From assembly GCF_040256745.1 (NCBI RefSeq), contig NZ_CP138335.1, positions 2,108,001 to 2,172,000 of the forward strand: a stretch of 64,000 bases of DNA. The letters run 5' to 3'. The position numbers were made by a program, and so were the translations under genes. Source of the DNA: Scrofimicrobium sp. R131 (GTDB taxonomy: Bacteria; Actinomycetota; Actinomycetes; Actinomycetales; Actinomycetaceae). Shown here in pieces: positions 35,455 to 37,154 of this stretch (position 1 is the stretch's first letter; every line of letters starts with the position of its first letter). The notes under the pieces were generated by a model, which saw nothing but the letters and a program-made list of their open reading frames with translations, searched no databases and was not told where the DNA came from.

Positions 35455-35610
35455 GAGCCGGGGTCGGGCTTCGTGGGTTCTGGGGTGGGGTGTTGGTTTG
35501 GTTTGGGGTTGGGTTGGGGTTGGGTGTGCGGTGTGGGCGCGTTTGGGCGCGTTTGGGCGTGTTTGGGCGTGTTTGGGTGGGGGTTTGGGCGGCTTAGGCG
35601 TGCGGTACGG
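35455..35610 (+). repeat. G-rich tract with G-quadruplex motif and 10-bp repeats
   Basis: The plus strand is almost free of runs of C and rich in TTTGGG and TTGGGG. At 35505-35524 four G-runs separated by TT form a textbook quadruplex motif. From 35541 to 35580 four perfect-length copies of GTTTGGGCG(C/T) follow with a 10-bp period, flanked by degenerate copies. No gene is supported here; ORFs crossing it are low-complexity. Confidence 0.7.
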
Positions 35611-35619
35611 GCGGGAAGG

Positions 35620-35829
35620 CTGGCAAACCTACCCAAACGCTGGCAAAACCTGGGCCCAGCGGCCCAAACCAGCTCAAACTCCCAACGTTTGCCAGCATTC
35701 CGACACGTTTGCCAACACCCGCGGCTGGCAAACCTACCCAAACGCTGGCAAAACCAGGGCCCAGCGGCCTAAACCACCCCAAACACCCAACGTTTGCCAG
35801 CACTCCGACACGTTTGCCAACCCCGGGCC
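35620..35829. repeat. Two 105-bp tandem repeats with eight TGGCAAA(C) sites
   Basis: Units start at 35620 and 35725 and differ at only a handful of positions over about 97 bp. Each holds two TGGCAAA sites in plus orientation (35621 and 35641; 35726 and 35746) and two inverted copies GTTTGCCA (35687 and 35707; 35792 and 35812). Within every pair the spacing is exactly 20 bp. This looks like an array of binding sites for a dimeric or oligomeric protein. It is not a CRISPR: only two units and no spacers. From 35830 to about 35940 I see nothing recognisable. Confidence 0.8.
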
Positions 35830-35944
35830 GCAAAAACCCCCAGACGGCCAGCAGTCCGGGGGTGAGAGCCCGCAAATCCAGGCCCGCGTGCGCAACGACG
35901 CTAACCTGCACTTTTCGGCAGCATTCTGCCGATCCTACAGTGGC

Positions 35945-36670: not shown

Positions 36671-36859
36671 ATGACTGACTCAACCGCGCCCGAAAACGCC
36701 AAGCAGGCGGAAACGAGCGCCATCCAGGCCCCAAACGGCGCAACGCCGGACCCTCAGCAGTTCGAGGCGATCACCTCGCAAGACGAACTCGACCGCATCA
36801 TCACTAGCCGGCTCTCGCGCGAGCGCGCGAAGCACCAACGGCCTCATTCCCATAGCTAG
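36671..36859 (+). pseudogene. 5' fragment of a phage scaffold protein gene
   Basis: Starts with GGAAGGAAACACC before ATG. An acidic, Ala/Pro/Gln-rich N-terminus is followed by ITSQDELDRIITSRLSRERA, the typical beginning of phage capsid scaffold proteins. After residue 55 the sequence turns to QRPHSHS and stops at 62 aa, whereas full proteins have 150-250 residues. A deletion joined it to unrelated DNA near 36835. Confidence 0.55.
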
Positions 36860-37043: not shown

Positions 37044-37067
37044 GGCTTTATTTAGCCGTTCCTACCG

Positions 37068-37154
37068 CGGAGAGTAAGGGATTCGAACCCTTGGTGCCAT
37101 TGCTGACACAATGGTTTTCAAGACCATCACCTTCGGCCGCTCGGTCAACTCTCC
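37068..37154 (-). tRNA. tRNA-Ser(TGA)
   Basis: 87-nt class II cloverleaf on the minus strand. The acceptor GGAGAGT (37148-37154) pairs with ACTCTCC (37069-37075). The anticodon stem ATGGT/ACCAT has loop CTTGAAA, anticodon TGA. Long variable arm and GGTTCGAAT T loop are present. CCA is not encoded. The phage remnant lies on its 3' side, as expected for tRNA-targeted integration. Confidence 0.95.

Follow-up and report, generated by a model that had tools for sequence, protein, structure and literature searches.

The array and its surroundings

The window, a stretch of 64 kb (C1:2108001-2172000) from the single 2,221,980-bp contig that makes up the 2.22 Mb genome, contains an intergenic array of short repeats, flanked upstream by a sugar operon and downstream by what is left of a phage. 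This remnant is a fragment of a phage head-scaffolding protein (window 36671-36859), located between the array and a tRNA-Ser gene (around 37067-37154); it is read as a degraded prophage, with the tRNA gene as a possible attachment site. Direct reading and a pattern search find eight TGGCAAA heptads between 35621 and 35819 (Table 1). They are paired at an exact spacing of 20 bp and make up two 105-bp units, which confirms the coordinates, geometry and intergenic setting given in the original prediction. Each unit is made up of a 27-bp A site, a 40-bp spacer and a 27-bp B site, together 94 bp, with an 11-bp linker completing the 105-bp period. The sites are pairs of direct repeats, with no palindrome within a site. 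The pattern TGGCAAAC-N12-TGGCAAA matches four times in the 64-kb window, with the strands alternating + - + -, against none expected by chance (100 dinucleotide shuffles).

Table 1. Positions of the array, its parts and related elements (window coordinates, unless a locus is named).
Feature	Position	Strand	Description	Basis
Unit 1	35621..35714	+	A site (TGGCAAAC-N12-TGGCAAA, + strand), 40-bp CA-rich spacer, B site (same motif, - strand)	
A site, unit 1	35621..35647	+	heptads 35621-35627 and 35641-35647	pattern search
B site, unit 1	35688..35714	-	heptads 35688-35694 and 35708-35714	pattern search
Linker between units 1 and 2	35715..35725	.	11 bp; helical phase kept (105 bp = 10 turns of 10.5 bp)	
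Unit 2	35726..35819	+	structure as unit 1; starts 105 bp after unit 1	
A site, unit 2	35726..35752	+	heptads 35726-35732 and 35746-35752	pattern search
B site, unit 2	35793..35819	-	heptads 35793-35799 and 35813-35819	pattern search
Strongly curved DNA (predicted)	35600..35819	.	end-to-end/contour 0.33; sole stretch of the window below 0.70	
Left flank	35535..35590	+	about five 10-bp GTTTGGGCGC-type repeats	read by eye
Terminator-like hairpin with T-run	35832..35863	-	just outside the array	read by eye
Insertion sequence copies	L022:5939-7323, L030:6180-7564, L023:8975-10359		all three near tRNA genes	

The 10-bp repeats of the left flank are the reverse complement of the A-site core, CCCAAACGC, and may extend the phased pattern of the array. 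A GT-rich tract at window 35500-35600 holds these GTTTGGGCGC-like repeats; comparable GT-rich tracts are found before the arrays of L021, L035 and L037. On the other side, a separate terminator-like hairpin adjoins the array, which therefore need not itself be a terminator. A protein-coding repeat of 35 residues was also considered (105 bp is 35 codons, and several frames are open); it was rejected because the codon phase differs from heptad to heptad (0, 20, 67 and 87) and some arrays contain 1-bp indels.

A family of nineteen arrays

A pattern search of the whole genome revealed 19 arrays of the same geometry, with 56 exact sites. Allowing two mismatches, the motif has 73 matches, against 2 for the reversed pattern, so there is almost no background. 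Most arrays consist of two units, the others of one, two and a half, or three. The 40-bp and 11-bp spacers alternate at the 19 loci, and departures from the geometry are minor: a single spacer of 41 bp, a single N11 and incomplete arrays at 600, 806 and 2070 kb. All 19 are intergenic, and the genome-wide search found no decayed copies. Their neighbours are functionally unrelated, including smc, ndk, rplL, rpoC, rpsJ, tsaD/sdhB, metG, pdxS, ABC transporters and tRNAs; the idea of a regulon was rejected, as the genes beside the arrays share no function. The original prediction had considered a local phage or plasmid feature and had itself named genome-wide dispersal as evidence against it; the 19 dispersed copies contradict that idea.

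Conservation of the heptads

When 33 units were oriented alike, identity between loci was 94.3% for the heptads, 67.2% for the N12/13 stretches and 57.8% for the spacer. In round figures, 94% of heptad positions are identical against 58% in the spacer, bearing out the earlier observation that the geometry is strictly kept while other positions drift. Composition alone would give a spacer identity of 32.6%; the copies are therefore homologous but diverged, that is, old. From the drift of non-heptad positions about 58 heptad changes would be expected and about 10 are seen, a count that draws mainly on well-preserved units. Heptads remain near-intact even at the loci that have diverged furthest (L030, L026 and L034). 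The heptads are thus under strong constraint.

The array folds better than its shuffles (z of -4.4 as RNA and -5.0 as DNA), and a symmetric hairpin is possible. No covariation of the potential hairpin pairs was found, the one pair with a double change being at shuffle level. Of 29 units, 11-13 have mismatches in the pairs that flank the heptads, and the 10x10 internal loop is never paired. Constrained heptads lacking covariation favour recognition of duplex DNA by its base sequence, and the conservation pattern thus points to sequence-specific binding at the heptads.

Helical phasing and predicted curvature

In the two-unit arrays, the power spectrum of A/T content peaks at exactly 10.5 bp, about 9-fold above shuffles. 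The A/T maxima are symmetric about the dyad of the unit, at 0, +/-9.5, +/-21.5, +/-31.5 and +/-41.5 bp. Pairing of the sites two helical turns apart, as for a cooperatively bound protein, is supported, in agreement with the original prediction.

This 10.5-bp phasing of A/T leads to a predicted curvature that, for each array, far exceeds that of the rest of the genome examined. Under three wedge models alike, the 19 arrays all have a stronger predicted bend than almost any of about 1600 background windows. The predicted end-to-end/contour ratio of the arrays is 0.35-0.56, compared with about 0.90 in dinucleotide shuffles (z of -6 to -9.6). Elsewhere in the approximately 615 kb of genome stretches covered by the curvature and gene-context statistics, only six stretches have a ratio under 0.70, and all of these stay at or above 0.58. 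When the heptads are kept and everything else is shuffled, the ratio comes to about 0.79, so heptads and filler both contribute to the predicted curvature. The most bent array (0.24) is at L029:6200-6400, between genes for an Asp-Al_Ex family permease and an FGGY kinase.

Chromosomal distribution, polarity and gene context

From dnaA and the minimum of GC skew, oriC lies near 76 kb, in agreement with three parS sites at 81 kb, which puts the terminus antipode at 1187 kb. As to the position relative to oriC and ter, which the original prediction proposed to check, arrays occupy the two thirds of the chromosome nearer the origin and are absent around the terminus. No array occurs within 806-1553 kb, a gap of 747 kb centred at 1180 kb, 7 kb from the antipode. 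The probability of a gap of such size and so centred is 9e-5; without a prior on the gap centre, for a gap of such size anywhere, the significance is only p ~0.01 (0.012).

The arrays also have a direction. On the leading strand the 40-bp spacer is rich in GT, a polarity that follows the replichore at 18 of the 19 loci (sign test, p 8e-5; the polarity of the short 2070 kb array was scored by eye), the exception being the array at 1715 kb. At the two tandem loci where transcription opposes replication (600 and 1624 kb; L025 and L028), the spacer is oriented with replication. A genome-wide GC skew of only about 0.03 is too small for mutational skew alone to account for the polarity. Polarity and terminus exclusion together point to chromosome-scale organisation.

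With gene contexts taken from a crude gene caller, ten arrays are in convergent gaps, eight in tandem gaps and one in a divergent gap, compared with 2, 38 and 21, respectively, of the other gaps (Fisher p 3e-6). The location at gene ends and in convergent gaps, together with the lack of a shared function among the neighbours, argues against promoter control.

Partition sites and candidate binding proteins

The parS centromere is a 16-bp palindrome, TGTTTCACGTGAAACA, near oriC. Three perfect canonical copies are present at 81 kb beside the single ParB gene, and two near-perfect ones at 48.5 and 2208 kb. Because canonical parS sits separately, a ParB/parS partition role of the arrays is unlikely. 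The genome has one ParB only, and no second ParB-family protein of the kind of a Noc-like paralogue was found in it. The two best HTH_3 matches tested are R-M controller-like and ClgR-like, and neither matched EspR in the PDB. An 88-aa R-M controller-like protein at G000:C1:119226-119378 (L074) has C.BclI as its best PDB match (E 3e-14).

Occurrence in relatives, phages and plasmids

Among the genomes searched, the element is confined to this actinobacterium. Relatives had been proposed as a place to look for the paired sites; none were found in five sister species or in 199 other genomes of the family Actinomycetaceae, where a 98-position profile, with the best 20 candidates per genome scored, gave a best E of 0.003, which is background. 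The closest sister species is 78-82% identical in the two proteins compared. In the sister G003 there is no array in the gap between tsaD and sdhB, the counterpart of an array-bearing gap here, nor are there equivalent bent sites in 400 kb (minimum end-to-end/contour 0.58). A pattern with 30 fixed bases found no array in GTDB contigs, and the viruses, phages and plasmids of IMG/VR (pattern with 22 fixed bases), INPHARED and PLSDB gave no array match. No Rfam family covers the array, the only match being a chance one to a miRNA (E 3.2).

Copying and insertion sequences

The arrays at 232 kb (L023) and 1557 kb are 94% identical outside the heptads and have unrelated flanks, showing that arrays can be copied. 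Directly after the L023 array are two adjoining HIRAN-like stretches (L023:5795-7178), one apparently degraded. Arrays vary in unit number and have unrelated flanks, and no target duplication of an array was recognised by eye. A Mutator/IS256-type insertion sequence of 1385 bp, encoding a 396-aa transposase, is present in exactly three near-identical copies in the genome. Two of the three interrupt arrays: each sits in the outer heptad of an array's last site, the 8-bp target duplications being TGTTTACC and CACGTTTG. REP elements are known insertion-sequence targets, for IS256-family elements among others (PMC1525189). A Y1 transposase (RAYT/IS200) was searched for as PF01797, with no match in the genome and matches in 8 of 14 control genomes.

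Comparison with known systems

The closest known kind depends on the property compared: by layout it is the BIME, by physics the gyrase motif, by distribution the Noc and SlmA sites and by motif EspR. Membership was tested for REP/BIME, parS and iterons and failed for each. Like the arrays, BIME/REP elements, especially BIME-2, are dispersed and intergenic, mostly at gene 3' ends, with alternately oriented units and fixed alternating spacers; they also serve as insertion-sequence targets (PMC1525189), and those of E. coli show a gyrase-related phasing. Their unit, however, is a palindrome of 20-40 bp with a GTAG/CGTC tag, whereas the array unit contains two direct heptads 20 bp apart and no palindromic unit; there is no RAYT in this genome, the loci number 19 instead of hundreds, and the arrays are in addition strongly curved by prediction, excluded from the terminus and polarised with replication.

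The E. coli gyrase motif spans about 130 bp, with GC content varying at a 10.75-bp phase on both sides of a central segment; gyrase sites are over-represented in BIME-2 and downstream of operons with strong transcription (PMC6379681). The arrays resemble this extended motif in their helically phased A/T and GC, their symmetry about a centre and their location downstream of genes; they differ from it in having near-invariant heptads and in forming a dispersed homologous family. On one strand all heptads read TTTGCCA, an exact fit to the consensus TTTGC[TC][GA] of EspR, a nucleoid-associated protein of M. tuberculosis. EspR dimers occupy multiple sites cooperatively and form DNA loops (PMC3315491), but EspR sites are hundreds of dispersed single motifs with no fixed geometry. 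Noc-binding sites (NBSs) are absent from the terminus region and SlmA-binding sites (SBSs) are similarly distributed (PMC4331003); both are, like the arrays, sequence-specific and spread over the chromosome, but have another motif and another architecture.

Discussion

The array looks like a chromosome-organising site and not like a phage or plasmid control region, because there are 19 intergenic copies with a predicted bend, fixed-spacing heptads, replication polarity and absence from the terminus. Of the options in the original prediction, the chromosomal site stands, the phage or plasmid control region does not, and a partition site is improbable. We give an even chance to the interpretation that it is one of about 19 members of a lineage-restricted repeat family of BIME-like type, maintained as sites of nucleoprotein wrapping that serve chromosome architecture or the control of supercoiling. 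Wrapping fits the same-face sites, predicted curved DNA, dyad symmetry and whole numbers of turns. Each element presents a stretch of predicted curved DNA with near-invariant TGGCAAA on one helical face in dyad-symmetric pairs. A sequence-specific DNA-binding protein, perhaps together with gyrase, could occupy the heptads cooperatively and wrap or bend 100-200 bp into a nucleoprotein complex. Such complexes might have an architectural role in the origin-proximal two thirds of the chromosome, either as loop or domain anchors or in handling supercoils from converging transcription, and would not be promoters or operators of particular genes. The elements would have spread by BIME-like copying and then been maintained.

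A bolder reading, which we put forward tentatively, is a dedicated architecture system in which a sequence-specific protein on curved heptad arrays, polarised with replication and excluded from the terminus third, marks chromosome position and direction, a functional counterpart of MatP- or Noc-type systems evolved anew in one lineage. What speaks against an architectural role in general is that no binding protein emerged from the ParB-family search and the two HTH_3 candidates, and that the sister species lack the family, which is odd for an essential system unless it is young.

The main rival, somewhat doubtful in our estimation, is a selfish family with replication-biased insertion: a non-autonomous dispersed repeat, MITE- or REPIN-like, with the heptads as binding sites of a transposase that has been lost or acts in trans. 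Insertion at replication forks would give the orientation bias, and convergent gene ends would be the least harmful places to insert. The copies are homologous and dispersed, and strand-biased insertion is known for single-strand transposons (PMC6006769). The recent copying of the L023 and 1557-kb arrays into unrelated flanks is as expected of a selfish repeat and counts against an architectural role, and the array-free tsaD-sdhB region of G003 also agrees with insertion of a selfish element. On the other hand, no Y1 transposase and no decayed copies were found in the genome, constant ends or target duplications were not recognised by eye, and the heptads are intact even in the most diverged resident copies. 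Transposition does not need helical phasing or curvature of the non-heptad positions either.

It is unlikely that the arrays are simply strong DNA gyrase sites, like those of E. coli BIME-2 or phage Mu, in which the DNA would be led around the GyrA C-terminal domains by its phased A/T bends, at convergent gene ends with their accumulating positive supercoils. The 10.5-bp phasing with dyad symmetry and the enrichment at convergent gene ends fit such sites. Gyrase, however, reads shape and has a degenerate motif, so a near-invariant TGGCAAA needs another reader, and neither terminus exclusion nor polarity is predicted. Less probable still is a terminus-excluded spatial marker of the nucleoid-occlusion kind, as Noc/NBS or SlmA/SBS, with an unrelated binding protein. 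Absence around the terminus antipode is shared with NBSs, but these are single palindromes, not curved arrays, and have no replication polarity; the single ParB-family protein means that there is no Noc paralogue of that family.

An iteron or control region of a phage or plasmid, or a ParB partition site, is very improbable: direct repeated sites do lie beside a phage remnant in the window, but iterons are confined to a replicon control region beside a rep gene, the arrays are 19 dispersed chromosomal copies without a match in phage, plasmid and viral collections, and canonical parS is elsewhere. Equally hard to credit is an RNA-level element (bidirectional terminator, attenuator or mRNA stabiliser) acting through a TGGCAAA/TTTGCCA stem, for which the better-than-shuffled fold and the location at gene 3' ends speak, but which is opposed by the broken, non-covarying stem with its unpaired internal loop, by the lack of a U-run, by the separate terminator-like hairpins read by eye beside arrays, and by direct repeats and helical phasing that it leaves unexplained.

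Dispersed bacterial repeats are commonly written off as selfish DNA. Here, one family in a 2.2 Mb genome unites constrained sequence-specific sites, extreme predicted curvature, replication polarity and terminus exclusion. Its 19 discrete sites form a small, fully listed set for asking whether a dispersed repeat is a chromosome-organising code, and the arrays could be used as bait for a new nucleoid protein.
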